Source: Bacillota bacterium
Lineage (GTDB): Bacteria; Bacillota; Clostridia; Peptostreptococcales; Anaerovoracaceae
Direction: 5' to 3'
DNA: 34,955 bases
Assembly: GCA_017459895.1 (NCBI GenBank)
Contig: JAFUCA010000035.1
Span: 1 to 34,955 of the forward strand
Shown piece after piece: positions 2,545-34,669 of this stretch. Within the stretch, counting starts at the first letter, position 1; each line of letters begins with the position of its first letter. The translations under genes and the position numbers were made by a program. The notes below the pieces were generated by a model, which worked only from the letters and a program-made list of their open reading frames with translations, searched no databases and had not been told where the DNA came from.

Positions 2545-4794
2545 ATGAACGAAGAATACACCGGTGTGATCCGGGAAATCATTTTTCATAACAACGAAAA
2601 CGGCTATACAGTGGCCGTTTTTGAAACGGAATCCGAAGGCTTTGAAGAGGAATTCACCGTCGTAGGGAACATCCCCCAGGTGGCGGCAGGAAGGACCTAC
2701 ACGCTGCGGGGCTCCTTTGTGGAGCATCCTTCCTACGGGGAGCAGTTCAAGGTCAGTTCCTTTGAAGAACAGATGCCGACCTCCGAAGAGGGGATCCGGG
2801 AGTTTCTCGCCTCCGGTGCGATGAAAGGGATCGGCCCGAAGACCGCCGCCGCCATCGTCGCTCTGTTTGGGGAGGACACCTTCCGGATCATAGAGCACGA
2901 GCCGAATTGTCTGACGGAGGTTTCGGGGATCGGATCAAAAACAGCGGTCCGGATCTCCGAGGCTTTTGCGCAGCAGAGGGAATTCGCCTCGGTCACCCTG
3001 CAGCTGCAGAAATACGGCATCGGGGCGGAGTACGCGCTGAAGCTGTATCAGTCCTACGGCATGGATACGATTCGGGTGCTGGAGGAGAATCCCTACCGGC
3101 TCATTGATGACTTCTATGGGATCGGTTTTGTAAAGGCTGATAAGATCGCGGAAAAAATGGGCTTTCAGAAGGATGACCCCTTCCGGATTCGGAGCGGGAT
3201 CCTGTTCACGCTGAATCACTTTTCGCGGGATGGGCATACCTGCCTTCCGGAGGAAGAGCTCTGCGAGAAGGCGGCCCAGCTTTTGGAGCTGTCCCGGCAG
3301 CAGGTGCGGCAGCAGCTGGAATTCATGGCCTTTTCCGGAGAGATCCATATCGATCTGATCCAGCAGAAGAAAGTTGTCTATCTGATGTCGTTTTATCTGG
3401 CGGAGCAGAGCGTCTGCAAGAATCTGCGCATGCTTCGGGGAGCTGACCTGAAACCCCTCGCCGGCGGAGAGATCGACTCACTGATCCGCCGGACGGAAAC
3501 AGCGATGGGCATCCCCTTCAGTGAAAATCAGAAGGATGCCGTGCGAACCTCCCTTCAGAACGGCGTTTCGGTGATTACCGGAGGCCCCGGAACCGGGAAG
3601 ACGACCATCATCAATGCGATCATCGACATCCTGGAGGACAGCGGGCAGAAGACGGCGATCGCTGCCCCGACGGGCCGCGCTGCGAAACGGATCACGGAGA
3701 CCTCCGGTCATCCGGCCTCCACCATTCACCGGCTGCTGGAGTATTCCTACACGGAGGGAGAAGACGGACTGCGCTTTGGCCGCAACGGTGAAAACCCGCT
3801 GGAATACGACGCGGTGATCGTCGACGAGGCTTCCATGATCGACCTGCTTCTGATGGACGCGCTGGTGCGCGCGATCCGGCCGGGAACGAGGCTGATCCTG
3901 GTGGGTGACGATGATCAGCTGCCGTCGGTGGGAGCCGGCAATGTGCTGCGGGACATGATCAGCAGCGAATACATTTTCTGCACGAAGCTGACGAAGATCT
4001 TTCGGCAGGCAGGAGAGAGCATGATCGTGGTCAACGCCCACCGGATCAACCGGGGGGAGTATCCCGACTGCAATGTCAGGGACAAGGACTTTTTCCTGCT
4101 TCGAAGGTCGAAGGTCCCAGAGATGCTGCAGACGCTGCTGGATCTGTGCGTGCGGCGGCTGCCGGCCTTTTTCCCGAAGCTTTCACCGGTCAGAGATATC
4201 CAGGTGCTGACTCCGGTCCGCAAGGGCCCCCTCGGCTCGGTAAACCTGAACCAGAGACTGCAGGCGGTGCTGAATCCGCCGGATCCGCAGCGCCTCGAAA
4301 AAACCCATGGAGACCGGGTCTTCCGGGAGGGTGACAAGGTCATGCAGATCCGAAACAACTACGAGATGAAGTGGCGGGACTGCGAAGATTTTACCGAAGG
4401 GGAAGGAATTTTTAACGGGGACGTCGGATTCATCCAGAGCATCGATCCGGAGCTGGGGGAGATCACTGTACTGTTTGACGGAACGCGGTATGTCACGTAT
4501 AATCCCGCGCAGCTGGAGGAGCTGGAGCTGGCCTACGCGGTCACGGTCCACAAGAGCCAGGGCAGTGAATTCCCCGTTGTGGTGATGCCCATCAGCTGGT
4601 TCCCGCCGGTGCTTGCTACGCGCAATCTTCTCTACACAGGGGTAACGAGAGGGAAGACCGCCGTGGTCCTGGTCGGCTCGGAGGATCAGCTGCACGCGAT
4701 GGTGGACAATAACCGGATCAGCATGCGCTATTCCGGCCTGGCCTGGCGCCTGGCCCAGCTTCTGAAGCTGGAAAATGAGCTGCGGGAGGGGTAG
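2545..4794 (+). CDS. recD2: ATP-dependent DNA helicase RecD2 (RecD-like, SF1B)
   Basis: At 749 residues this is the size of Bacillota RecD2, a 5'-3' DNA helicase of recombination and repair that works without RecBC. Helix-hairpin-helix segments are visible near residues 90-140 (MKGIGPKTAAAIV and VSGIGSKTAVRI). The helicase core begins with Walker A GGPGTGKT at residues 346-353, followed by Walker B-like DEASMID, the DDDQLPSVGAG motif III, the VTVHKSQGSEF motif V and YTGVTRGK motif VI. It starts 13 bases after the preceding gene, so it is probably in the yhaM operon. No recB or recC lies nearby, consistent with the RecD2 class. Confidence 0.96.
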   Translation: MNEEYTGVIREIIFHNNENGYTVAVFETESEGFEEEFTVVGNIPQVAAGRTYTLRGSFVEHPSYGEQFKVSSFEEQMPTSEEGIREFLASGAMKGIGPKTAAAIVALFGEDTFRIIEHEPNCLTEVSGIGSKTAVRISEAFAQQREFASVTLQLQKYGIGAEYALKLYQSYGMDTIRVLEENPYRLIDDFYGIGFVKADKIAEKMGFQKDDPFRIRSGILFTLNHFSRDGHTCLPEEELCEKAAQLLELSRQQVRQQLEFMAFSGEIHIDLIQQKKVVYLMSFYLAEQSVCKNLRMLRGADLKPLAGGEIDSLIRRTETAMGIPFSENQKDAVRTSLQNGVSVITGGPGTGKTTIINAIIDILEDSGQKTAIAAPTGRAAKRITETSGHPASTIHRLLEYSYTEGEDGLRFGRNGENPLEYDAVIVDEASMIDLLLMDALVRAIRPGTRLILVGDDDQLPSVGAGNVLRDMISSEYIFCTKLTKIFRQAGESMIVVNAHRINRGEYPDCNVRDKDFFLLRRSKVPEMLQTLLDLCVRRLPAFFPKLSPVRDIQVLTPVRKGPLGSVNLNQRLQAVLNPPDPQRLEKTHGDRVFREGDKVMQIRNNYEMKWRDCEDFTEGEGIFNGDVGFIQSIDPELGEITVLFDGTRYVTYNPAQLEELELAYAVTVHKSQGSEFPVVVMPISWFPPVLATRNLLYTGVTRGKTAVVLVGSEDQLHAMVDNNRISMRYSGLAWRLAQLLKLENELREG

Positions 4795-10084: not shown

Positions 10085-10281
10085 CAGGCGCGCCGCGCAT
10101 ATGGCCCGGGTCTGTGGTTGAAAGGCCAGGCCAGCTACGGGCGAAAGGTCCCACGTAAGCTGTTCGCAGGGCGGCAGTGATCATGGCGTAGTTTAGAAGT
10201 AAGTCCTCGGGAAAATCCCGGTCAAGGCAGGTGTGGGGGCAAAGACCAGGTCAGCCGGGCCATATGCGCAGCGCGTTTTTT
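10085..10281 (+). ncRNA. Structured small RNA, possibly the raiA motif RNA
   Basis: A region of about 190 bases is closed by a 21-bp terminal stem (10089-10109 with 10255-10275; only one pair is non-Watson-Crick, a G-U) and ends in six T residues, so it looks like a free-standing terminated RNA. Inside are a stem CAGCTACG / CGTAAGCTG (10132-10139, 10154-10162) enclosing GGG..CCC, and a CGGGA-AAA-TCCCG hairpin (10208-10220). Many GAAA/GGTC-type conserved-looking loops are present. It stands before a gene pair that includes hpf/raiA, which is why the clostridial raiA RNA is my best guess. It lacks the signatures of SRP RNA, tmRNA, RNase P and the common riboswitches I know. 6S RNA or an unnamed class remains possible. 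Confidence 0.65.
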
Positions 10282-10302
10282 GTTTCAGGAGGAAGGACAT
10301 CA

Positions 10303-11337
10303 ATGTTGGATAATTACGTGAGCGCGATGGAGCATTGGCAGGGAAGAGTCGACAGCGAGGAGGACTACGATTCTTTCCGATGGCATCAGTGGGTGAGGCC
10401 CCTGGATCTGAACGGGGATCCGGAGGTGTTTCAGGGTCCTCAGGGATTCGCGTTTATCGGCTTTTGCAGCGAGCAGGGGGTACAGAGAAACAAAGGCCGG
10501 GTCGGGACGGCTCTGGCGCCGGATCTGATCCGCCGGCAGATGGCGAATCTGCCCTGTACCTTCCAGCAGAGCGTGGCGATCTATGATGCGGGGGACATCC
10601 TCTGTCAGGACATTTCCATGGAGGAGGGGCAGGCCCGGCTGGCGGAGGCGGTACGCCGGATCCTGGCGCTGAATCTGTTTCCCATCGTTCTGGGCGGCGG
10701 GCACGAGACCACCTTCGGACATTACTGCGGACAGCTGGCCCATGCCGAGGGAAAGCAGCCGGAGAAAACACCGGATATCGCCGTGGTCAACTTCGATGCC
10801 CATTTTGATCTGCGGCCTTACGACCGGGGCTCAAGCTCCGGATCCATGTTCCGGCAGATCGCGGATATCTGCCGGGAAAAGGGGATGAAGTACGGATACC
10901 TGCCCCTGGGGATCCAGAAGCACAGCAATACGGTGAGTCTGTTCCGGGAAGCGGAGCGGATGGATGTGCGGTACGTGCTGGCCAGAGACCTGCAGTACGG
11001 CTCTGCGGCATCGGTCTATGAGAAGGTGGATACCTTCATGTATGAGCACGAGAACGCCTACATCACCATCTGTACGGACGTGTTTTCCTCGGCCTTTGCC
11101 CCCGGAGTCAGCGCGCCTCAGGCGCTGGGGCTGGATCCGGAACGGGTCCTGCCGCTGATCAAGCACATCCTTCGGACCCGCAAGATCCGCGGATTCGACA
11201 TCTGCGAGATCTCCCCGCGGTTCGACCAGGACAACACCACCGCCAGCCTGGGCGCCGTGCTGATCTTCACCGTGGTGAATACGATCTGCAAGCTGAAGAA
11301 TCTTGCCGTGAATACCGGCGTGGAATACTACGGATGA
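10303..11337 (+). CDS. hutG: Formimidoylglutamase-like ureohydrolase (arginase/agmatinase family)
   Basis: The 344-residue protein belongs to the ureohydrolase superfamily, binuclear Mn enzymes that split C-N bonds of guanidino or formimidoyl groups. Metal ligands seen are His134 in GGGHET and Asp165, His167 and Asp169 in NFDAHFD. The late loop reads TICTDVFSSAFAPGVSAP. The APGVSAP run points to HutG (N-formimidoyl-glutamate to formamide and glutamate) rather than arginase. Position 257 is Cys where most superfamily members have a metal-binding Asp; Asp259 is kept. No other histidine-degradation genes are near. The ATG at 10303 follows AGGAGGA; the upstream in-frame sequence is the structured RNA and not coding. 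Confidence 0.8.
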   Translation: MLDNYVSAMEHWQGRVDSEEDYDSFRWHQWVRPLDLNGDPEVFQGPQGFAFIGFCSEQGVQRNKGRVGTALAPDLIRRQMANLPCTFQQSVAIYDAGDILCQDISMEEGQARLAEAVRRILALNLFPIVLGGGHETTFGHYCGQLAHAEGKQPEKTPDIAVVNFDAHFDLRPYDRGSSSGSMFRQIADICREKGMKYGYLPLGIQKHSNTVSLFREAERMDVRYVLARDLQYGSAASVYEKVDTFMYEHENAYITICTDVFSSAFAPGVSAPQALGLDPERVLPLIKHILRTRKIRGFDICEISPRFDQDNTTASLGAVLIFTVVNTICKLKNLAVNTGVEYYG

Positions 11338-11350
11338 GAATTGTAGCGCA

Positions 11351-11378
11351 GGATGAAAATATTCTGAAAAATTCATCC
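11351..11378. other. Hairpin between hutG and hpf
   Basis: A 7-bp perfect inverted repeat GGATGAA / TTCATCC with a 14-base AT-rich loop lies 14 bases after the hutG stop. It lacks a T-run, so termination is doubtful. Confidence 0.35.
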
Positions 11379-11385
11379 GCCTTCA

Positions 11386-11414
11386 TTGAAAGCTGCGCCA
11401 TGCTATGTTAAACT
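11386..11414 (+). promoter_or_regulatory. Promoter of hpf
   Basis: TTGAAA (11386-11391), a 17-base spacer and TAAACT (11409-11414), with TG one base upstream of the -10 (11406-11407), give an extended -10 sigma-A promoter 31 bases before the hpf ATG. Confidence 0.75.
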
Positions 11415-11444
11415 AAAGAAAAAGTTATAGAAGGAGGTCTCTTA

Positions 11445-11972
11445 ATGAAAGTCATTATTACAGGAAAGAACTATGCTCCAAGCGAAAAGCTGAAGGAGAC
11501 CATTGAAAAGAAATTCGAGAAGCTCGACAAGTACTTTTCAAATGAAATCACCGGAAACGTGATGACGATCAAGGAGAAAGGGAACTACAAGGTAGAAGCC
11601 ACGATCAACGCGAACGGCACGATTTTCCGGGCGGAAGTCCGCTCCGGAGATCCCTATGACTGCGTTGACAGATGCATCGAGAAGCTGTCCAGCCAGATGT
11701 CCCGTTTCAAGACCAAACTGCAGAAGAAGCACAAGGGCCAGAAGGCCGTGGATTTCGCGGAGGTTCCGGCGTTTGAAGAAACCGAGGAAGAAATTCATGT
11801 TGTCAAGAGGAAGAAATTCGGGCTCTCCCCGATGACCGTCGACGAGGCGATCGTTCAGATGGAGCTGCTGGAGCACAACTTCTTCGTCTTCCTGAACATC
11901 GAGACAGATGCAGTTAATGTGGTCTATCGCAGGGCGGATCAGGACTACGGACTGCTGGAAACGACCTATTAA
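11445..11972 (+). CDS. hpf: Ribosome hibernation promoting factor, long form
   Basis: This 175-residue protein has the two-domain layout of long HPF. The N-terminal ribosome-binding domain (residues 1-100; GKNYAPSEKLKETIEKKFEKL) sits between the 30S and tRNA sites. A charged linker leads to the C-terminal dimerization domain (about 120-175; KKFGLSPMTVDEAIVQMELLEHNFFVF) that joins two 70S ribosomes into 100S dimers in stationary phase. It has its own promoter, an AGAAGGAGG ribosome site and a strong terminator, so it is a single-gene unit. Confidence 0.97.
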   Translation: MKVIITGKNYAPSEKLKETIEKKFEKLDKYFSNEITGNVMTIKEKGNYKVEATINANGTIFRAEVRSGDPYDCVDRCIEKLSSQMSRFKTKLQKKHKGQKAVDFAEVPAFEETEEEIHVVKRKKFGLSPMTVDEAIVQMELLEHNFFVFLNIETDAVNVVYRRADQDYGLLETTY

Positions 11973-13172: not shown

Positions 13173-13545
13173 GAACAAGAAATTCCAGGCCATACTCTCC
13201 CTGCTGATTGCCATCGGCCTGTGGATGTATGTGATGGGGACCGTGGATCCCACCGTTACGACGACCATCCGCGATGTCACGGTGGAGAAGATCAACGAGG
13301 ATGTTTTGGAGGAGAAGGGACTGTCGGCTGATCTGGAACGGCCGGACACCGTGAACATCGAGATCAAGGGTGCCAGATCCGACGTGAATGAAGCCAAAGA
13401 AGGCGAGATCCGGGCGACGGTGGACGTTTCCAACTGCGAATACGGAGAGAATGAGACGGAGATCAAGGTGAAATTCCCCGATGGAGTTTCCGGCGTGAAG
13501 GTGGAGAACATCTCCCAGAGAACCGCTGTTTTCACTGTGAAATAG
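13165..13545 (+). CDS. cdaR: CdaR-like YbbR-domain protein, short form
   Basis: A 126-residue protein with an N-terminal membrane anchor (residues 8-25, ILSLLIAIGLWMYVMG) and a single YbbR-like domain (DPTVTTTIRDVTVEKIN onward). CdaR proteins bind CdaA and tune c-di-AMP synthesis. Bacillus CdaR has several YbbR repeats and about 480 residues; this one has one, so it is a minimal version. Overlap with cdaA supports a joint role. The ATG follows GAGGAGGGACAGG. Confidence 0.85.
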   Translation: MLKNKKFQAILSLLIAIGLWMYVMGTVDPTVTTTIRDVTVEKINEDVLEEKGLSADLERPDTVNIEIKGARSDVNEAKEGEIRATVDVSNCEYGENETEIKVKFPDGVSGVKVENISQRTAVFTVK

Positions 13546-13588
13546 CGCATCCCGCGCATTTGCTGATATAACCAGAGAGGAGTAAGAA

Positions 13589-14146
13589 ATGTTAAAATTC
13601 CTTTTAGTGATTCTGATCATCATCGTGCTGATCATCGTATGGCTGGTCTCCACGTACAACGGGCTCGTTCGCAGCCGCAACACCGTGGATGAAGCGTACT
13701 CTACGATGGATGTCTACCTCAAGAAGAGATTCGATCTGATCCCGAATCTGGTGGAGGCGGTCAAGGCGTATGCGGCCCACGAGAAAGAAACTCTGCAGGC
13801 CGTGATCGCAGCCCGGGGACAGATCCAGTCGGCGGGAACGCAGGCGGAGCGGATGGAAGCGGAGAACGCGCTGTCCGGAACTCTGAAATCCCTGTTTGCC
13901 GTTGCAGAAGCTTACCCGGATCTCAAGGCCAACGAGGGATTCCTTGATCTGCAGCAGCAGCTGAAGAAGGTCGAAGAAGACATCGCTCAGTCAAGAAAGT
14001 ATTTCAACGGCAGTGTCAAGGCGTACAACAACAAATGCCAGACATTCCCGTCCAGCTTCATTGCAAGCACATTCCGCTTCGAACCGCGCACCATGTTTGA
14101 GGTCTCCAGAGAAGAGGAAAGAGAAAATGTCAAAGTTGAATTCTAG
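13589..14146 (+). CDS. lemA: LemA family protein
   Basis: The 185-residue protein has one N-terminal membrane helix (residues 3-21) followed by the family stretch NTVDEAYSTMDVYLKKRFDLIPNLVEAVKAYAAHE, then an amphipathic helical body and the closing FRFEPRTMFE region. LemA proteins are membrane-anchored with a soluble helical domain; their molecular function is not settled. Pairing with a DUF2207 protein, which follows with a 20-base overlap, is a frequent arrangement and suggests the two act together at the envelope. An AGAGAGGAG ribosome site precedes the ATG. Confidence 0.92.
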   Translation: MLKFLLVILIIIVLIIVWLVSTYNGLVRSRNTVDEAYSTMDVYLKKRFDLIPNLVEAVKAYAAHEKETLQAVIAARGQIQSAGTQAERMEAENALSGTLKSLFAVAEAYPDLKANEGFLDLQQQLKKVEEDIAQSRKYFNGSVKAYNNKCQTFPSSFIASTFRFEPRTMFEVSREEERENVKVEF

Positions 14147-16043
14147 ACTTTGGACGGATCCGGATCGCCGCGGCAAGAGGAGATCCGGATTTCTGTCTCT
14201 GGCCGTCGCGCTGCTGATGGCCGCCTTTATGGTGCCTGCATTCCTCGCGCCGGAGGAGGCCAGCGCGGACAGCGCCGGCTACACGACTCCGTCCTACGAT
14301 GTGAACGTGGTGACCGATGAAGATCACGTCTTTCACGTTACCGAGGAGATCCAGGTGGACTTCTATGAGTACCGCCACGGGATCTACCGGTACATCCCGG
14401 ACGGCAGCCGCTATTACGGGATCAGCAATGTGAGGGTGCAGGGATACGATTACGAGGTGTATTCCGAAAGCGGCAATCAGGTCGTGCAGATCGGAAGCCC
14501 GGACTATACGGTTTACGGACCCCAGACCTACCGCATCAGCTACGATATCGTCGGATACCGGGACGATTCCGGCGAGCAGGACTACCTGTCGCTGGATCTG
14601 CTGCCCACCGGCTGGAGCACATCCATCGAATCGGCAAACCTTCGCATCGAATTTCCCAAGGAGATCCGGGGGATCGAGACCTTCGCCGGTGCCTATGGCA
14701 GCCAGGACGGAAATGACTATTTTAAGGTGACGGACAGCGGAACCGTGTACACAGCGGTCTCCCGGGGGGAACTGCCCCGGGGCGTTGGACTGACCATTAA
14801 GGCGGATCTGCCGGAGGGCTACTGGGTCAATCCCTACAGCCGGGATTCAGCCCTGCAGGGGCTCTGCGGGATCCTGGCGGTCATGGGCATGCTGATGCTG
14901 CTTCTGTGGTTTGCGGTGGGCCGGGACGATCCGATCATCCCGACGGTGGAGTTCTACCCTCCGGAGGAACTGGACCCGCTGGAGATGGCCTACGTGGCAA
15001 ACGACGAGGTGAAGACGAAGGATATCTCCGCTCTGCTCATTTATCTGGCGGATAAGGGTTACATCCACATCGACTCCGACGGCAAGAGATCCTTCACGCT
15101 GATGAAGCAGCAGGAGATCGGGGAGAATGAGCGGTCCCATACGAGAAAGATCTACCATTCTCTGTTCGCAAACCGCAGGAAGACGGTCCGGCTGAAATCC
15201 CTGCCGGATGGATTCGGTGAGGTTGCGGCGAAGACTCCCTCGGAGGTGAAGTCAAGCGTTGAGAAGCGGCGCAGGACCTTCTCAGCGGCCTCCAAGGCCG
15301 GCAGAGCCGTCGGCCTGGCGTTCTGCCTGTTGATCCCCGTGATCGCGGCGGGCGCCCATTCCTGGCTGACCTTCGGGTCTTCCGACTACGGGTTTATTCC
15401 GCTTCTGATGGCACTGGTCATGTTCGCCTCCATGGTGAGCCTGGTGGCGAAGACGGACGCTTTCCGGACGAAGAAGCGGCCGGTGCGGATCATCATCGGA
15501 TTCATCATATTCCTGGCGGCTCTGGCCATGGAAGCATGGATCATCGCGCTGGATTATCCGGTGCTGGCGCTGGTCTTTGCCTGCGCGGAGCTTGCGGCAG
15601 CGGTCGCGACCATCTTCGTGCGGCGGCGGATGAACAACGAGCTCTTCGGCCGCGTGCTGGGATTCCGCGATTTCATCCGCACGGCGGAATACGACCGGCT
15701 GAAGATGCTGTCCGAGGAGAATCCGGATTACTATTTCAACATCATGCCCTACGCCTGCATTTTCGGGATGTCGACAAAGTGGGCGGATAAATTTTCCGAT
15801 TTCAGGATTCCGCAGCCCTCGTGGTACACCAGTCCCGCCGGGACCTGGGATCCGTACTTCGGACACCATATGTACATCTATTCAGGAAACAATATCAGCA
15901 GCGCCGTTGCAAGCCATTACAAGGCAGTCGGTTCCGATTTCCTGTCCTCCGCCGTGGACAGCGCCGGCAGCGGCGGCGGCGGTTTCTCCGGCGGAGGGTT
16001 TTCCGGCGGCGGCTTCGGCGGCGGAGGAGGAGGTTCATGGTAA
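14127..16043 (+). CDS. DUF2207 membrane protein with glycine-rich tail
   Basis: The 638-residue protein starts with a basic N-terminus and a signal/anchor helix (about residues 21-42, ending near ASA). An extracytoplasmic beta-rich region carries the DUF2207 opening (YDVNVVTDEDHVFHVTEEI and FYEYRHGIYRYIP). A membrane helix near residue 250 leads to a cytoplasmic part with DPLEMAYVANDEVKTKDISALL. Further helices lie near 395-450 and 460-510. The tail is GGGGFSGGGFSGGG-type ending GGSW, as often seen in this family. I chose the ATG at 14127, which overlaps lemA and has an AGAGGAAAGAG site; earlier in-frame sequence lies inside lemA. Function unknown. Confidence 0.88.
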   Translation: MSKLNSRLWTDPDRRGKRRSGFLSLAVALLMAAFMVPAFLAPEEASADSAGYTTPSYDVNVVTDEDHVFHVTEEIQVDFYEYRHGIYRYIPDGSRYYGISNVRVQGYDYEVYSESGNQVVQIGSPDYTVYGPQTYRISYDIVGYRDDSGEQDYLSLDLLPTGWSTSIESANLRIEFPKEIRGIETFAGAYGSQDGNDYFKVTDSGTVYTAVSRGELPRGVGLTIKADLPEGYWVNPYSRDSALQGLCGILAVMGMLMLLLWFAVGRDDPIIPTVEFYPPEELDPLEMAYVANDEVKTKDISALLIYLADKGYIHIDSDGKRSFTLMKQQEIGENERSHTRKIYHSLFANRRKTVRLKSLPDGFGEVAAKTPSEVKSSVEKRRRTFSAASKAGRAVGLAFCLLIPVIAAGAHSWLTFGSSDYGFIPLLMALVMFASMVSLVAKTDAFRTKKRPVRIIIGFIIFLAALAMEAWIIALDYPVLALVFACAELAAAVATIFVRRRMNNELFGRVLGFRDFIRTAEYDRLKMLSEENPDYYFNIMPYACIFGMSTKWADKFSDFRIPQPSWYTSPAGTWDPYFGHHMYIYSGNNISSAVASHYKAVGSDFLSSAVDSAGSGGGGFSGGGFSGGGFGGGGGGSW

Positions 16044-18783: not shown

Positions 18784-18826
18784 GTTGATACTCCTTTTTT
18801 CAGATTTGGTTAGACGTCTCTTCTTA

Positions 18827-18855
18827 AGTGTAATTCCTTCGCCTTCGATTCGCAA
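18827..18855 (-). promoter_or_regulatory. Promoter of the M18 aminopeptidase gene
   Basis: On the minus strand TTGCGA (18855-18850) and TACACT (18832-18827) are 17 bases apart, 44 bases upstream of the start codon. Confidence 0.6.
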
Positions 18856-18875
18856 GTGATTTCCTCGGAAAAGGC

Positions 18876-18904
18876 TTGCAAAAGATGCAGTGTATGTTTA
18901 AAAT
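18876..18904 (+). promoter_or_regulatory. Promoter of the glmS ribozyme-nagB operon
   Basis: TTGCAA (18876-18881) and TAAAAT (18899-18904) are 17 bases apart. Transcription would start near 18911, about 50 bases before the ribozyme cleavage site. Confidence 0.8.
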
Positions 18905-18954
18905 AGGAATGTTAAAACAGTGAGCTGGCGAAGGAGGGAAGAGAACGCAGCCTG

Positions 18955-19072
18955 CTGTTAGCGCCAGGCCCCGAAAGGGGTGACGAGGATGGCAGTTATC
19001 GAAAGACTCGGCGGGTGCTGCCACGGCCGTCCATGGGAACCCCCATGGAACGTGGGTCGTCAGAGAGAAAGC
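18955..19072 (+). ncRNA. glmS ribozyme: glmS ribozyme (GlcN6P-activated self-cleaving riboswitch) upstream of nagB
   Basis: All the core motifs are present in order: AGCGCC at 18960-18965 (cleavage expected between A18960 and G18961), a CCCC-GAAA-GGGG hairpin (18969-18980), TGACGAGG (18981-18988), TTATCGA (18996-19002) and TCGGCGGGTGC (19008-19018). The core helix GGCAG / CTGCC pairs 18991-18995 with 19018-19022. Downstream GC-rich pairings (CCATGGG / CCCATGG near 19031-19048) fit the P3-P4 part less certainly. The ribozyme uses glucosamine-6-phosphate as cofactor to cut the mRNA leader, lowering expression. It normally controls glmS; here the gene 80 bases downstream is nagB. Confidence 0.93.
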
Positions 19073-19150
19073 AAAAAACGGAATCAAAACCGCAACAGAG
19101 GTTCTCTCGTCACACGAAACTACAGAAAATAACAAAGGAGATAAATCGAT

Positions 19151-19942
19151 ATGAGAGTTGTAATTCAGGAAAACTATGACAATATGTGCAAGTGGGCAGC
19201 GAACTACATCGCGGATAAGATCAGAAACCATAAGGAAGACCGGCCGTTCATCCTGGGTCTGCCGACGGGATCTTCTCCCATCGGAGTGTACAAGGAACTG
19301 GCAAGGATGAACCAGGCGGGCGAGCTGAGCTTCGCCAATGTGGTCACCTTCAATATGGATGAGTATCTGGGTCTGCCCCATGAGCACGATCAGTCCTACT
19401 GGTACTTCATGCACGACAATTTCTTCGACCATCTGGTGGACATGAAGCCGGAGAACATCAACATTCTGAACGGCATGACCGATGATCCGGAAGGGGAGTG
19501 CGCCCGCTATGAGGAGAAGATCGCCAGCTACGGCGGCATCGATCTGTTCATGGGCGGCATCGGCGTGGACGGCCACATCGCGTTCAACGAGCCCTACACC
19601 AGCCTTTGCTCGAGAACCGGCGTGCGGAATCTGACTACAGACACCAGAATCGTCAACTCCCGTTTCTTCGGAAACGATCCGGAAGCGGTACCGTCCCAGG
19701 CGCTGTCCGTGGGCGTCGGCACCGTTACCGACTCGAAGGAAGTCCTGATCCTGATCAACGGCCACAACAAGGCGAGAGCGCTGGCGGCCACCGTTGAGGG
19801 CGGCGTCAGCCACAAGTGGACCTGCTCCGCGCTGCAGATGCACAACGGCGCCATCATCGCCTGCGATGAAGCGGCCTGCGGAGAACTGACGGTTGACACT
19901 TACAAGTATTTCCTCGACATCGAGAAGAAAGAGAGACTCTAA
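19151..19942 (+). CDS. nagB: Glucosamine-6-phosphate deaminase/isomerase NagB, possibly acting in synthesis
   Basis: The 263-residue protein is close to E. coli NagB (266) across its whole length. Catalytic residues are Asp70 in TFNMDEYLG, and Asp140, His142 and Glu147 in DGHIAFNEP; the phosphate loop is LPTGSSP. NagB interconverts GlcN6P and fructose-6-P plus ammonia. At the region equivalent to the E. coli GlcNAc6P allosteric site, Arg158 and Lys160 correspond to Gly157 and Arg159 here. The gene follows a glmS ribozyme and heads an operon with an acetyltransferase and glmM, joined by TAATG overlaps. That context suggests work in the amination direction, replacing GlmS (inference). The AAAGGAG site is ten bases before the ATG. 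Confidence 0.93.
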   Translation: MRVVIQENYDNMCKWAANYIADKIRNHKEDRPFILGLPTGSSPIGVYKELARMNQAGELSFANVVTFNMDEYLGLPHEHDQSYWYFMHDNFFDHLVDMKPENINILNGMTDDPEGECARYEEKIASYGGIDLFMGGIGVDGHIAFNEPYTSLCSRTGVRNLTTDTRIVNSRFFGNDPEAVPSQALSVGVGTVTDSKEVLILINGHNKARALAATVEGGVSHKWTCSALQMHNGAIIACDEAACGELTVDTYKYFLDIEKKERL

Positions 19943-20604
19943 TGTACACAATCAAAGATTTATACGATCTGGAGCATACGCTGGCGGCGGATTACCTGGC
20001 GCAGTTCACCTATCCCTGGGAGGCTCTCGCGGGCATCAAGGAACTGATCCTGCAGCTGGGACCGAACCTCGGCGAGGACTATGAAGAGGTCCAGCCGCAG
20101 GTATGGGTCCATAAGACCGCGAAGGTTTTCCCCTCCGCTTATCTGGGAGCACCCTGCATCATCGGACCGGGAACAGAAGTCCGGCACGGAGCATTCATCC
20201 GCAGCGCAGCGCTGGTGGGAGCGGACTGTGTGGTCGGCAACTCCGTGGAGCTGAAGAACGTCATCCTGTTCGATCACGTCCAGACACCGCACTACAACTA
20301 TGTGGGCGACTCCATCCTCGGATACTACAGCCATATGGGCGCCGGGAGCATCACGTCCAACGTGAAATCGGACAAGAAGAACGTCGTCGTTCATAACGGT
20401 ACGGAGCAGATGGAGACCGGACTGCGCAAGTTCGGCGCGATGCTGGGCGACTATGTCGAGGTCGGCTGCAACGCGGTCTGCAACCCGGGGACCGTCATCG
20501 GCCGTCACTGCAACGTGTATCCGACCTCCTGCGTCAGAGGCGTCATCCCCGAAAACAGCATCTGGAAGGATAACGGCGAGGTCATTCACAAGGAGGAGAG
20601 ATAA
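19942..20604 (+). CDS. Left-handed beta-helix acetyltransferase resembling the GlmU C-terminal domain
   Basis: The 220-residue protein has a short helical N-terminus and then a hexapeptide-repeat beta-helix (about residues 55-210). Its core TPHYNYVGDSILGYYSHMG then AGSITSN matches the GlmU acetyltransferase active-site region (E. coli VPHLTYLGD and NIGAGTITCN), with His117 in the position of the catalytic His. The uridylyltransferase domain of GlmU is absent. Expected reaction: acetyl-CoA plus GlcN-1-P to GlcNAc-1-P. It starts on the last base of the nagB stop (TAATG) and ends the same way into glmM, so the three genes are tightly coupled. A different sugar-phosphate substrate cannot be ruled out. 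Confidence 0.8.
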   Translation: MYTIKDLYDLEHTLAADYLAQFTYPWEALAGIKELILQLGPNLGEDYEEVQPQVWVHKTAKVFPSAYLGAPCIIGPGTEVRHGAFIRSAALVGADCVVGNSVELKNVILFDHVQTPHYNYVGDSILGYYSHMGAGSITSNVKSDKKNVVVHNGTEQMETGLRKFGAMLGDYVEVGCNAVCNPGTVIGRHCNVYPTSCVRGVIPENSIWKDNGEVIHKEER

Positions 20605-21950
20605 TGGGCAAATATTTCGGAACAGACGGATTTCGCGGGGAAGCGAATCAGACGCTGACCTACGATCACGCGATCAAAATCGGCCGTTTTCTGGGCTGGT
20701 ACTACGGCGCGAACCAGGGCAAGAAGGCGAAGATCGTCATCGGCAAGGACACCCGCCGGTCCAGCTACATGTTTGAGTACGCGCTTTGCACCGGCCTGAT
20801 GGCCAGCGGCGCGGACGCCTATATCATGCACGTTACGACGACTCCTTCGGTGGCATACATCACCAGAGTCGACGAGTTCGACTGCGGGATCATGATCTCC
20901 GCTTCTCACAATCCGTACTATGACAACGGCATCAAGCTTCTGAACGGAAATGGCGAGAAGATGGAGGAAGAAACCATCCTTCAGGTAGAGGATTACATCG
21001 ACGGCAAGATCGACATTCCGGCCGCCGGCCGGGAGGAGATCGGACGGACCGTTGACTATGTGAACGGAAGAAACCGCTACATCGGTCATCTGATCAGCAT
21101 GAGCAAATACGGCTTCAAGGGCAAGAGGGTCGGCCTGGATGTGGCCAACGGCGCGGCATGGCAGATCGCGAAGAGCGTTTTTGAGGCTCTCGGCGCGAAG
21201 ACCTACGTGATCAATGACGAGCCCAACGGATACAACATCAACACCGACTGCGGCTCCACGCATATCGAGCACCTCCAGAAGCTGGTGGTCGAAAAGGAAC
21301 TGGATGTGGGCTTTGCCTACGACGGAGACGCGGACCGCTGTCTGGCGGTGGATGAGAAGGGCAATGTCATCACGGGTGACCACATCATTTACATCTACGG
21401 CCTGTACATGAAAGACCGGGGCAAGCTGCTGAACAACAAGGTCGTTACGACGGTCATGAGCAACTACGGCCTGTTTAAGGCGCTGGACCGCGTCGGCATC
21501 GAGTACGACAAGACGAAGGTCGGAGACAAGTATGTCTATGAGAACATGATGGAAACCGGAAACCGCATCGGCGGAGAACAGTCCGGCCACATTATCTTCT
21601 CCAAGTACGAGACCACCGGAGACGGCATTCTGACCAGTCTGAAGGTCATGGAGGCCATGCTGGCGAAGGAAAAACCGCTGAGCGAGCTGGCGGCGCCGGT
21701 GATCTTCTATCCCCAGGTGCTGAAGAACGTCCGCGTCAAGAGCAAGCCGGACGCCCAGAACGATCCGGATGTCCAGGCTGCAGTGCAGCGGGTCGCCGAT
21801 GAGCTGGGAGATACCGGCCGCATCCTGGTCAGAGAATCCGGAACCGAGCCGGTGATCCGTGTCATGGTCGAGGCGGATACCGAGGAGATCTGTGAGAAGC
21901 ATGTGGACGCGGTAATCGATGTGATCACGGCCAAGGGACACCGGGCGTAG
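20604..21950 (+). CDS. glmM: Phosphoglucosamine mutase GlmM
   Basis: GlmM converts GlcN-6-P to GlcN-1-P for UDP-GlcNAc and peptidoglycan. The 448-residue protein begins YFGTDGFRGEAN, has the phosphoserine loop ISASHNP (Ser101), the metal loop DGDADRC, the sugar loop GGEQSGH and the phosphate-binding RESGTEPVIRVMVE near the end. All four domain signatures are in order and length is normal. An AAGGAGGAG site precedes the ATG, which overlaps the previous stop as TAATG. It lies between the acetyltransferase and a DUF4125-like gene. Confidence 0.96.
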   Translation: MGKYFGTDGFRGEANQTLTYDHAIKIGRFLGWYYGANQGKKAKIVIGKDTRRSSYMFEYALCTGLMASGADAYIMHVTTTPSVAYITRVDEFDCGIMISASHNPYYDNGIKLLNGNGEKMEEETILQVEDYIDGKIDIPAAGREEIGRTVDYVNGRNRYIGHLISMSKYGFKGKRVGLDVANGAAWQIAKSVFEALGAKTYVINDEPNGYNINTDCGSTHIEHLQKLVVEKELDVGFAYDGDADRCLAVDEKGNVITGDHIIYIYGLYMKDRGKLLNNKVVTTVMSNYGLFKALDRVGIEYDKTKVGDKYVYENMMETGNRIGGEQSGHIIFSKYETTGDGILTSLKVMEAMLAKEKPLSELAAPVIFYPQVLKNVRVKSKPDAQNDPDVQAAVQRVADELGDTGRILVRESGTEPVIRVMVEADTEEICEKHVDAVIDVITAKGHRA

Positions 21951-21995
21951 GACGGCGGACAGACGGCGGACTTTGCCGCCGGGAAGGAGAACGAG

Positions 21996-22646
21996 ATGGG
22001 CAGAGGAGATGTGGTTCTGACCCGGGACAATCGGGAATTCATCCGGCAGGACTGCCTGCGGGATGCGCTGATCTACGAGATCGTGGATCTGGAATGGAGC
22101 ATGATGCAGGACATGAGAAGCGCCCAGGGCCGGCCCCTGGAGGAGTCGGGTTTTGAGGCGTTCTATCAGGTTCGCTACAGCCAGCACAGCGCCATGAATT
22201 CGGATACGGTGGGCCTGTACAAGCAGGATCTGATGATCGCAACCCACACCGGCCGGAACCTGATGGCGGAGAAATACGGCTATATGAAGGATCCGTCAAA
22301 GCTGCCGGAGGATCCGGCGGTCCGGGATCTGATCGGCCAGATCGTTCCCCTGATGCTGCAGTCTCAGGAGAGGTTTTCAAATGCCTTCCCGGCGCTGGGG
22401 AGCATGAGCCGCGCCTTCGATCCCGAGGAGGATCAGGTGAGTCTGGAGGTCTACATCACCAGTGAACTGGTGGGCAAGTCCGACACGACTCTGCAGATGA
22501 TCCTGCGGGATGTGAAGCTGAATCCGGATTACATCCGGGACATCTTCGAGGTCTTCGTCAGCTTCTTCGGACAGGATTCCCTGGGCAAGGCCGAGGTGCT
22601 GGCCGCGGCGCAGCAGATGAAACCCTGCCGGGGAGCTACGCTGTAA
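21996..22646 (+). CDS. DUF4125-like protein of unknown function
   Basis: A 216-residue soluble, acidic, mainly helical protein. The stretch DLEWSMMQDM, then FEAFYQVRYSQHSAMNSDTV and YKQDLMIATHTGRNLMAEKYGYM, resembles the conserved core of DUF4125, in which a short W/F-rich helix and an NL.EKY motif recur. No catalytic motif or membrane segment is visible. It starts 45 bases after glmM with a GGGAAGGAG site and ends at the operon terminator, so it is co-transcribed with the amino-sugar genes, but nothing in it explains a role there. Confidence 0.65.
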   Translation: MGRGDVVLTRDNREFIRQDCLRDALIYEIVDLEWSMMQDMRSAQGRPLEESGFEAFYQVRYSQHSAMNSDTVGLYKQDLMIATHTGRNLMAEKYGYMKDPSKLPEDPAVRDLIGQIVPLMLQSQERFSNAFPALGSMSRAFDPEEDQVSLEVYITSELVGKSDTTLQMILRDVKLNPDYIRDIFEVFVSFFGQDSLGKAEVLAAAQQMKPCRGATL

Positions 22647-29883: not shown

Positions 29884-30195
29884 GTGTTTTCCACCATCGC
29901 AGGCGCACTGGCCGGGGCAGCATACGGCAGCGCAGTCGGATATATCAAATATGCGGCACTTTGGAAAAGAATATTAAAGACCAATAAGAAGATAGCGGCG
30001 GGAGTACTGTACCAGCACATGGGGATCAGCTATGCCATCAATGTCGTGACCCTTCTTATTGTTTTTTTGCTCAGAAACCAGATCCCCTGGGATTTTATGA
30101 TCGTCATCATCGCGGCAGCGGTCATGCTCAGTCTTGTGGGCAAGCTGGCGCCGATGAGTGAGATCGTCAGTCATGTGGAGGAGGGCGCATCATGA
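29884..30195 (+). CDS. atpI: ATP synthase subunit I-like small membrane protein
   Basis: A 103-residue hydrophobic protein with three to four membrane helices (about residues 3-20, 44-62 and 68-86) and a YLKYAALWKRI-like basic loop. It has no strong motif, but position first in the atp operon and size fit AtpI, which assists c-ring assembly. The start is GTG with an AGGAGG site four bases upstream. The stop overlaps atpB as ATGA. Confidence 0.72.
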   Translation: MFSTIAGALAGAAYGSAVGYIKYAALWKRILKTNKKIAAGVLYQHMGISYAINVVTLLIVFLLRNQIPWDFMIVIIAAAVMLSLVGKLAPMSEIVSHVEEGAS

Positions 30196-30875
30196 TCAGT
30201 AAACTCTATGCGATCGGAATGACGGACGCGATGATCACGTCCAGCATCATCACCATCCTGATCTGCGCGGCCGCCATCATCATCAGCCGGAAGATCTCCG
30301 TCGAGAACCCGGCGCCCCTGCAGAACATGGTCGAGATGGGACTGGAAAAGCTGCACGGCTTCTTTCAGGAACTCATGGGAGAGGAAATGTGCAGGAAGTA
30401 CTTCCCGCTGGTGGGGACCCTGTTCATCTACATCCTGATCTGCAACTACTCGGGGCTGCTGCCTCTGGCAGGACACGCGCCGGGCTTTCAGGCACCGACC
30501 AGCGACATCAACTTCCCGGCAGGGCTGGCGATCATGGTCATCATCCTGGTGCAGCTGATCGGCCTGCGGGAGCACCGCGGCATGGGAACGTACAAGAGGA
30601 TGATCCAGCCGTTTATCTTCATCTTCCCTCTGATGCTGATGGATGAGCTGGCAAAGCCCATCTCCCTCACCTTCCGACTTTACGGCAACACCTTCGGAGA
30701 CGAGCAGGTCGTGGACGTTCTGCGGGAGCTCTGCCCGGTGCTGCTTCCGGTAGTGATGCAGTTCCTCGTCGTGATCCTGGCGCTGATCCAGGCGGTGGTA
30801 TTCGCCCTGCTGACGGCGATCTACATCGGCGAGGCGGTGGAGAAGGAAACGACGCTTCCCATCGAACAGCACTGA
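30192..30875 (+). CDS. atpB: F-type ATP synthase subunit a
   Basis: Subunit a forms the two ion half-channels beside the c-ring. The 227-residue protein has five to six membrane helices. The essential Arg is Arg162 in ISLTFRLYGNTFGDE, and the preceding FIFIFPLMLMDELAKP helix is typical. The C-terminal helix reads LAIIQ-like (ALIQAVVFALLTAIYIGEA). It overlaps atpI by four bases; 77 bases separate it from atpE. Confidence 0.96.
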   Translation: MISKLYAIGMTDAMITSSIITILICAAAIIISRKISVENPAPLQNMVEMGLEKLHGFFQELMGEEMCRKYFPLVGTLFIYILICNYSGLLPLAGHAPGFQAPTSDINFPAGLAIMVIILVQLIGLREHRGMGTYKRMIQPFIFIFPLMLMDELAKPISLTFRLYGNTFGDEQVVDVLRELCPVLLPVVMQFLVVILALIQAVVFALLTAIYIGEAVEKETTLPIEQH

Positions 30876-30889
30876 GCCGGACCCAATAA

Positions 30890-31180
<291 letters not shown>

Positions 31181-31210
31181 CGGCTTCAGAGAGCAAGGGA
31201 GGAATTTGTA

Positions 31211-31704
31211 ATGCTTGACGCATTAGGATTAAACCTGAAAGAAATCATATTCGTGATCATCAACTTCCTCATCCTCGTGGGCGTACTGGGTAAATTCCTG
31301 TACAAGCCGTTCCTTGGCGCGCTGGAAACCAGAAAGCAGAACATCAAGGACACCTATGACAAGGCGCAGATCGAAAGCCGCCGGGCGGATGCGAAGATGG
31401 CCAAATACGAACGCCGCATCGCCAACGCCGAGGACGAAGTCCGGGACATCATCCGGGACGGCAAGAAGCGGGCGGACCGTCAGGCGCAGCAGATCATCGA
31501 AGAGGCCAATCAGAAGGCTTCCGACATCGTCCGGCGGGCCGAAGAAGCGGCCGAGCTGGAGAAGGCCAAGGCGATGGACGAGCTCCGGGAGGAGATCGCA
31601 GACATGGTGATCATGGCTGCGGAGCAGGTCGTCGAGCGGGAGATCGAAAAAGAAGGTCACATGGCGATCATCGATGATGTGATCGATAAGGCGAGGAAGG
31701 TACA

Positions 31705-31717
<13 letters not shown>
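31211..31717 (+). CDS. atpF: F-type ATP synthase subunit b
   Basis: The 168-residue stator stalk protein has one N-terminal membrane helix (about residues 10-28, IIFVIINFLILVGVLG) with the typical KFLYKPFL after it, then a long charged coiled coil (about 35-150). It starts 30 bases after atpE with GGGAGGAA and overlaps atpH by 13 bases. Confidence 0.96.
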
Positions 31718-33799
<2,082 letters not shown>

Positions 33800-33800
<1 letters not shown>

Positions 33801-34669
33801 TGGCAAAGCAATCGATGCAGGACATCAAAAGGCGGATCAAATCCGTCTCCAGCACGGAGAGGATCACCAACTCCATGAAGCTGATCTCTGCGGGTAAGCT
33901 TCGGAGGGCGCGCAAACTCTACGAGGAGACACACGAAAATTCGCTTTTTATCACAAATACCATCAGCGAGCTCTTTCAGAGCAGCATGGACGTTCCGGAG
34001 AAATACCTGGATGGCAGCCGGAAACAGGATCGGACCGCGTACATCATCATCACCAGCAGCAAAGGCCTGTGCGGCGGGTTCAATACCAACGTGCTGAAGC
34101 GGGCCCAGGAGAGGTTCGATGAGGAGCACGCCGCGCCGCTGATCGTGGCGATCGGCGGCAAAGGGCTGGAATATTTCGAGAAGCGGGGCCACGATATCTA
34201 TAACTCCTATCTGGCGGCGCCGGAGACCATCTCCTTCCTGGAAACGGAGGAAATCTCCCGGCCGATCATCGAGATGTTCGATGAGGGACGGATCAATAAG
34301 GTGGTGCTGATCTACACGGCCTTTGTCAACGCCATGGAGCAGAAGGTGGTGGAGAAGACCCTGCTGCCGTTCCGCATGGAAGAGATTGCAGGGCAGGCGC
34401 AGGCGGTCTCACAGAAGACGGAATACGAGCCCTCGGCGGAGGTGGTGTTCAACTATCTGATCCCGAAGTACGTGGAGATGGAGCTGTACGCTTCCGTCAT
34501 CGAGTCGGCGACCTGTGAGCACGCGGCCCGGAGGACGGCCATGGAGAGCGCCACCGACAACGCCAGGGAGATGCTCAGCCGGCTGAATCTCAGCTACAAC
34601 CGGGCACGTCAGGCCGCCATCACCGACCAGATCATTGAGATCGTTGCCGGCGCGGAGGCGCAGAACTAA
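33800..34669 (+). CDS. atpG: F-type ATP synthase subunit gamma
   Basis: The 289-residue central rotor shaft has the two long terminal helices that form the coiled coil: [29 protein letters not shown] at the start and [34 protein letters not shown] at the end. The middle has [12 protein letters not shown]. It overlaps the atpA stop by one base and ends 11 bases before atpD. Confidence 0.97.

Follow-up and report, generated by a model that had tools for sequence, protein, structure and literature searches.

What does a glmS-type ribozyme do in front of nagB, a gene of the glucosamine-6-phosphate (GlcN6P) deaminase family, when its usual place is the leader of glmS, the gene for the glutamine-dependent GlcN6P synthase? 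The arrangement lies in an assembled genome of the Anaerovoracaceae (Bacillota bacterium, GCA_017459895.1, here G000; 2.50 Mb, 93.3% complete, 5.1% contaminated), on contig JAFUCA010000035.1, which was analysed over its whole length of 34,955 bases and is called the window below (G000:C7; G and L numbers are our handles for genomes and loci). We confirm that the ribozyme heads a nagB-acetyltransferase-glmM operon, and we consider it likely that this NagB is a biosynthetic, ammonia-dependent GlcN6P synthase in an operon under product feedback by GlcN6P. This is the best reading because the ribozyme stands on nagB, no glmS was found in this genome, the operon recurs in many species and GlmS replaces NagB in some of them.

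The ribozyme and its operon

A sequence-only reading of the window had placed a glmS ribozyme directly before nagB, with the cut between A18960 and G18961. Both claims were borne out: RF00234 matches model positions 1-167 at 59.6 bits (cmscan, gathering score 37, E 1.7e-11), and the cut site predicted by the model is the same. The core strings AGCGCC, GACGAGG, AUCGA and UCGGCGG are all present, and nagB starts 32 bases 3' of the ribozyme. The coupling of the three genes by TAATG overlaps, also proposed by that reading, was found at 19940-19944 (nagB/acetyltransferase) and 20602-20606 (acetyltransferase/glmM). RF00234 matches G000 only once, at the window copy, and the genome search gave a single NagB. 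The suggested genome-wide check for glmS found no GlmS over the cut-off; the best TIGR01135 match reached 25.1 bits (cut-off 418.05) and belongs to an open reading frame (ORF) which, as read, encodes a different class II glutamine amidotransferase.

The window ribozyme belongs to a subtype. Of 197 genomes of the family 15 have an RF00234 match, 14 of them over the cut-off. Nine scored 87-106 bits and all lie ahead of GlmS, while six, including the window copy, scored 33-63 bits. The five others in the low-scoring group adjoin a NagB 84-92% identical to that of the window, with an acetyltransferase 75-87% identical to the window's in four loci and none seen in L013. We built a covariance model, R1 (A2), from five NagB-linked family copies, the window copy included, and searched all 349 family genomes. 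Of the 22 genomes with a match, 13 scored 93-163 bits and nine 32-61 bits. Of the 13 stronger copies one runs out with its contig; the 12 others, those with downstream sequence, all lead NagB or acetyltransferase-NagB, whereas all nine weaker copies lead GlmS; the 13 carriers span seven genera. The window-type RNA shares core strings, cut site and helix plan with RF00234 and, like it, lies in the 5' leader of a gene for amino-sugar metabolism, but it has its own P2, P3 and P4 sequences and leads nagB or acetyltransferase-nagB instead of glmS; in the family R1 separates the 13 nagB-linked from the nine glmS-linked copies. In L048 (G113, 11139-11942, minus strand) ribozyme and nagB are not followed by acetyltransferase or glmM. 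In L016 (G175, 1440-1860) acetyltransferase-NagB-GlmM stands behind a ribozyme with large P1 and P3 insertions and intact core strings; this genome has no GlmS over the cut-off.

The operon is not restricted to this family. Alignment of the acetyltransferase against named genomes matched at least 594 stretches, 588 of which encode relatives, and the best 80 loci were analysed. Of these, 63 carried 64 R1 copies, including Succiniclasticum ruminis DSM 9236. Behind 61 of the 64 copies the gene run (gaps of at most 400 bases) contains NagB, with NagB first in 42 and the acetyltransferase first in 19; the other three runs start with GlmS. The core strings are kept in almost all copies (AGCGCC 61/64, GACGAGG 63/64, CGGCGG 62/64). 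In the alignment of these 64 copies (63 distinct), 97.9% of cells are paired and 18 of 27 pairs are altered on both sides, and none of 500 shuffles reached any of five measures. The 13 family copies gave 97.7% of cells paired and 10 of 27 pairs altered on both sides; here four measures were never reached by shuffles and the fifth, further pair types, by 398 of 500. In both cases the alignment was fitted to the structure of the model, a bias in its favour. A chance match is ruled out by score, core, conservation and covariation; a one-off or contaminated contig is ruled out by the presence of the operon in three congeners and many other species. The ribozyme on NagB-acetyltransferase-GlmM is thus a real, widely conserved variant of a known ribozyme class.

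Among the 17 of the 80 loci without an R1 match, three contigs begin at or inside NagB (L146, L191, L203), L135 begins 43 bases before GlmS, L198 holds the acetyltransferase alone and L142 has a 51.7-bit RF00234 match ahead of GlmS; the rest are weighed below. An Rfam scan of 14 loci in which R1 matched weakly or not at all found RF00234 only in L142, L145 and L173, and in L129 (R1 56.8 bits) it found none. The titles of the best 80 loci name the ruminant gut in 24 cases and carry RUG or RUI codes, which we take to denote rumen genomes, in 30 more; since rumen genomes are well sampled, this skew is a lead and not a statistic. A tree of 73 NagB proteins had poor resolution, with good support for 24 of 67 inner branches. 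In it the two Acidaminococcaceae, S. ruminis and a metagenome-assembled genome (MAG), grouped with Butyrivibrio and a Coriobacteriaceae row with a Clostridia MAG, which is compatible with transfer without proving it. A plasmid scan with the acetyltransferase gave 91 records, the nearest from Ruminococcus albus 7 and Vescimonas, and the three plasmid-search regions inspected held no R1 match.

Table 1. Features of the window (promoter, ribozyme and operon genes)
Feature	Position	Strand	Basis
Possible sigma-70 promoter (TTGCAA, 17, TAAAAT)	18876..18904	+	Weak site
glmS-type self-cleaving ribozyme	18949..19118	+	RF00234 59.6 bits; R1 152 bits
nagB, GlcN6P deaminase family, 263 aa	19151..19942	+	TIGR00502 378.8 bits (cut-off 236.9)
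Hexapeptide acetyltransferase, proposed GlcN-1-P N-acetyltransferase, 220 aa	19942..20604	+	TIGR03992 C-terminal part; Hexapep; 5z09/2ggo
glmM, phosphoglucosamine mutase, 448 aa	20604..21950	+	TIGR01455 540.4 bits (cut-off 447.55)

Absence and exchange of GlmS

In the 49 genomes of the window's genus GlmS was over the cut-off in 41. It is missing from all four ribozyme-NagB carriers versus four of 45 others (Fisher 3.3e-4, a value that treats four congeners as independent and may reflect one loss). NagB was found in six of the 49 genomes, namely the four carriers plus G433 and G441 (below cut-off, with a stop), and these two have no R1 match. The non-carriers without GlmS (G413, G504, G505, G508) gave no NagB match either, so incompleteness or another cause also yields absence. 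For the 13 family carriers against the wider family sample, GlmS absence gave a p of 9e-4, which we do not use, the genomes being of unlike completeness.

Exchange within the operon gave a second line of evidence. In L135, L142, L145 and L173 the order is GlmS-acetyltransferase-GlmM, with GlmS standing where NagB would stand; RF00234 lies ahead of GlmS in the latter three, and L135 has just 43 bases before the gene. These four proteins belong to a separate GlmS class. L170 (Coriobacteriaceae MAG RUG13402) has two ribozymes, at 1705-1844 and 4016-4152, one before GlmS and the other before NagB-acetyltransferase-GlmM. The GlmS-leading copy scores 108.5 bits with R1, so the subtype is not strictly nagB-bound, and the pair offers a natural control for comparing two ribozyme targets. 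In family genus g82 NagB adjoins GlmM without an acetyltransferase in the 17 loci fetched, and none of the g82 genomes has an R1 match. Such exchanges are expected if both enzymes do the same job. The two can also go together, as eight Butyrivibrio loci have NagB-acetyltransferase-GlmM followed by GlmS in one run (L134, L149, L150, L154, L155, L163, L165, L171). No ribozyme was found at these runs, and their regulation must differ.

The direction of NagB

We propose the following route. NagB would combine fructose-6-phosphate (Fru6P) with free ammonia to GlcN6P, GlmM would convert this to glucosamine-1-phosphate (GlcN-1-P), and the acetyltransferase would make N-acetylglucosamine-1-phosphate (GlcNAc-1-P), pulling the reversible NagB step forward. 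At high levels GlcN6P would act as the cofactor of the leader ribozyme, so that the messenger is cut and the operon turned down. On this reading the window ribozyme would cleave in a GlcN6P-dependent manner.

The NagB protein itself fits either direction of catalysis. The motifs NMDEY and G-DGH-AFNEP, which hold the catalytic Asp, Asp, His and Glu of GlcN6P deaminases, are intact, and solved relatives include 7lqm, 3hn6 and 1cd5. The allosteric loop differs: where 7lqm and 3hn6 have RxK, in the loop that in the Escherichia coli enzyme holds the site for N-acetylglucosamine-6-phosphate (GlcNAc6P; R158 and K160), the window protein has G157 and R159. This GxR was read in 114 of 116 subfamily sequences, the other two being unreadable and some genes counted twice through overlapping loci. 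Loss of control by GlcNAc6P would be compatible with a non-catabolic role.

The acetyltransferase had been called GlmU-C-like; its likeness to archaeal and alternative GlmU proteins is confined to their C-terminal part. TIGR03992 gave 143.2 bits over the C-terminal part (cut-off 292.1), TIGR03991 likewise stayed under its cut-off, Hexapep gave 41.4 bits, and the bifunctional GlmU model (TIGR01173) reached 49.8 bits against a cut-off of 366.85 on the window protein, over the acetyltransferase part only. Among solved structures it comes closest to the C-terminal domains of 5z09 and 2ggo, the Sulfolobus dual sugar-1-phosphate enzyme, whose nucleotidyltransferase domain the window protein lacks. 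On these likenesses it is proposed to be a putative GlcN-1-P N-acetyltransferase. In G000 no bifunctional GlmU was over the cut-off, the best match being the window acetyltransferase, and no uridyltransferase that would finish UDP-GlcNAc was found over the GlmU cut-off. Three weaker GlmU matches in G000 lie in ORFs that, read without a family library, look IspD-, MobA- and RfbA-like. A nucleotidyltransferase-like protein, under the Pfam cut-offs, is encoded near the operon in L050 (8305-9864, minus strand) and L051 (6312-7307, plus strand), which represent two genera, and is a candidate GlcNAc-1-P uridyltransferase. Stand-alone acetyltransferase genes in L269 (5001-5669, Ruminococcus albus 7 plasmid pRUMAL01) and L270 (5001-5654, Vescimonas) are annotated as 'UDP-N-acetylglucosamine pyrophosphorylase', a name that is likely misleading, as the window homologue shows the hexapeptide part only.

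Two precedents point in opposite directions. NagB of Giardia lamblia makes GlcN6P from Fru6P and ammonia, and GlcNAc6P has no effect on it, according to the part of that report consulted (PMC4281351). Giardia is a eukaryote that induces the enzyme at encystment, whereas the operon here is bacterial, includes GlmM and an acetyltransferase and would be under RNA feedback; we know of no ribozyme on the Giardia gene. Akkermansia muciniphila, like the window organism, is a bacterium that lacks GlmS and has a single NagB candidate. Its enzyme has a Km of 41 mM for NH4 and 5.5 mM for Fru6P and, in the portion of the report consulted, was judged unable to make GlcN6P physiologically, the organism needing GlcNAc (PMC5902328). 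Between these precedents the protein sequence alone cannot decide; ribozyme, operon and GlmS replacement argue for synthesis.

Besides the Akkermansia enzyme, several observations weigh against a biosynthetic NagB. GlmS is over the curated cut-off in 45 of 50 named carrier genomes (drawn from 51 loci with R1 of at least 100 bits and no GlmS in the locus, L195 being left out) and is present in five of the 13 carriers of the family, so these genomes do not depend on NagB alone for GlcN6P; at nine further loci with R1 of at least 100 bits GlmS lies beside the operon. GlmS absence is also not confined to carriers: 36 of 197 family genomes, partly incomplete assemblies, have none over the cut-off, and G413, although 91% complete, lacks both GlmS and NagB, which may reflect a gap, an auxotroph or another route. 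Nine Butyrivibrio NagB-acetyltransferase-GlmM loci have no R1 match and eight of them no RF00234 match either (L151 was outside that scan); L138 and L152 likewise carry the operon with neither match. The GxR loop also occurs in g82 and Butyrivibrio NagB proteins without ribozyme, and the catabolic Akkermansia NagB is equally not activated by GlcNAc6P (PMC5902328, as consulted in part). Finally, the window ribozyme departs from the core with a G at 19015, which we map to A68 in Bacillus subtilis numbering, near the cofactor.

The sequence-only reading had called the operon 'GlmS-free'. The ribozyme on nagB, the single nagB and the negative search for glmS stand for the window genome, and the term also holds for the three carrier congeners; as a general statement it fails on the 45 named carriers with GlmS, which also rule out that NagB always replaces GlmS. 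Five named carriers have no GlmS (L125, L133, L169, L174, L179), of which L125 looks like congener G507 again (same ribozyme contig coordinates).

Of the alternatives, a catabolic NagB survives best, yet we hold it to be unlikely. The ribozyme would then serve the acetyltransferase and GlmM, its effect on NagB being incidental, or the operon would work as a valve, draining GlcN6P at low levels only. The usual direction of NagB enzymes is towards Fru6P (PMC4281351 and PMC5902328, each consulted in part), and most carriers tested also have GlmS. However, to silence an enzyme that removes GlcN6P just when GlcN6P is plentiful makes no regulatory sense, 61 of 64 copies lead a gene run that includes NagB, and GlmS swaps into the same position in four operons. 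No nagA was met among the window ORFs scanned, which are most but not all of them; no genome-wide search for nagA or GlcNAc uptake was made.

It is improbable that a real GlmS is merely absent from the assembly or that the contig was wrongly binned. The completeness and contamination of G000 leave room for either. Three congeners (92, 79 and 71% complete) carry the operon and also have no GlmS, however, and incompleteness would remove it from all four with a chance of about 3e-4, if independent. L125, moreover, has an M18 aminopeptidase gene upstream of the ribozyme on the other strand, as in the window.

A comparably small probability attaches to an RNA that changed its ligand or lost activity and no longer responds to GlcN6P. 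Such a change would fit the subtype's own P2, P3 and P4 sequences, its RF00234 scores of 33-63 bits against 87-106 bits for the glmS-linked family copies, and the G at the A68 position; the A68U exchange slows cleavage of the B. subtilis ribozyme (PMC11602151, consulted in part). Against it, core strings are kept in 61-63 of 64 copies, the mapped A68 position is A in 53 and G in nine (two unreadable), and L170 has a copy of this subtype ahead of GlmS.

Least probable is that the window organism, together with the three congeners that carry the operon, is an amino-sugar auxotroph that scavenges GlcNAc, with GlmS lost and NagB an ordinary breakdown enzyme: the Akkermansia precedent (PMC5902328, in the part consulted) and the missing GlmS of the genus carriers speak for it, but GlcN6P feedback on NagB would bring no gain to an auxotroph at this step, four congeners and 63 of 80 named loci retain the core and helices of the ribozyme, and GlmS-bearing carriers keep the same operon.

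Two nitrogen-dependent entries

With a biosynthetic NagB as the preferred reading, the carriers that have both enzymes call for an explanation. GlmS proteins form classes, and the usual class of the family is 65-79% identical to reference L033. None of the five GlmS-bearing family carriers has it: three have class D (51-53% identical to L033), one a Butyrivibrio-like GlmS and one an intermediate at 60%. We picked 20 GlmS surroundings by hand from carriers, 12 of which are class D; for most of the 45 named genomes the class was not set. The 81 ORFs at most four places from the 12 class D genes include, by Pfam, 12 glutamine synthetases (seven with a type III domain), four ammonium transporters, four P-II domains, four asparagine synthases (AsnB) and ten class I glutamine amidotransferase domains, among these four GMP and four CTP synthases. 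Thus all 12 loci have at least one glutamine synthetase, ammonium-transport or glutamine-amidotransferase gene nearby, partly by ORF reading; L249 has its closest one, a GMP synthase, at a distance of four ORFs. Around GlmS of other classes, where ORFs were read without Pfam, glutamine synthetase is near in L262, L263, L264 and L268 and CTP synthase in L266, and no such nitrogen gene was seen in L256, L265 and L267. The surroundings of 39 usual-class GlmS genes served for comparison: of the 90 ORFs in their 1.5-kb flanks 24 match PGM/PMM (GlmM-like), and no nitrogen enzyme is among the families listed, although these flanks are shorter and the sets unmatched. Ten GlmS loci from carriers (L109-L113, L205-L209) carry no ribozyme. 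These surroundings suggest that such a GlmS may serve under nitrogen scarcity and NagB when ammonia is plentiful.

On this basis, rumen and gut bacteria might have two nitrogen-dependent entries into amino sugars: an ammonia-NagB operon with its own ribozyme subtype, and a glutamine-dependent GlmS near glutamine synthetase and ammonium transporter genes, with some species, including the window's, relying on NagB alone. We give this model an even chance. In ammonia-rich habitats such as the rumen the NagB route would replace or supplement GlmS; carriers with both would use GlmS, often encoded near glutamine synthetase or ammonium-transport genes, when ammonia is scarce. The model parallels glutamate dehydrogenase versus glutamine synthetase/glutamate synthase. 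A known feedback system close to this one, B. subtilis glmM-glmS with its glmS ribozyme, has the same feedback metabolite and the same next enzyme, but relies on glutamine-dependent GlmS and on GlmU, where NagB and a separate acetyltransferase stand here (PMC6171935, consulted in part).

If NagB is biosynthetic, a 'deaminase' of the databases would in many rumen bacteria be an enzyme of cell-wall synthesis, the NagB arrow would point the wrong way in their metabolic models, and the supply of peptidoglycan precursors would depend directly on free ammonia, which is a central rumen variable. It would also be a natural gene replacement under a conserved ribozyme, with the ribozyme revealing the direction of the enzyme. 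To our knowledge, window-type species would be the first bacteria with NagB as essential GlcN6P synthase. Cultivated strains allow testing (Succiniclasticum ruminis DSM 9236, Ruminococcaceae P7 and YRB3002). No title or abstract opening describing a glmS ribozyme on nagB was met in the full-text literature, a body that leaves most subscription papers outside its scope. In the survey by McCown et al. of 2011, reportedly all but two glmS ribozymes stand before glmS. The arrangement is likely new, and an earlier mention in that main survey is possible.

Some neighbouring features remain. The promoter pattern occurs twice in 18800-22100 against 1.4 sites expected from shuffles, which makes the site in Table 1 weak. 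Directly upstream of the ribozyme-nagB operon of L050 (G159) lies a CofD/YvcK family gene (13454-14401, minus strand; PF01933, 279 bits), which we take to be GlmR, the protein that steers carbon into GlcN6P in B. subtilis. Behind glmM the window has a gene for a DUF4125 protein (21996-22646), with no match in L047-L051. A raiA RNA (RF03072, 135.4 bits) lies at 10101-10263 on the plus strand and overlaps a long arginase-family ORF at its start (10231-11337; the true start may be later). The contig ends with the ATP synthase genes a, b, delta, alpha and gamma (30192-34669).

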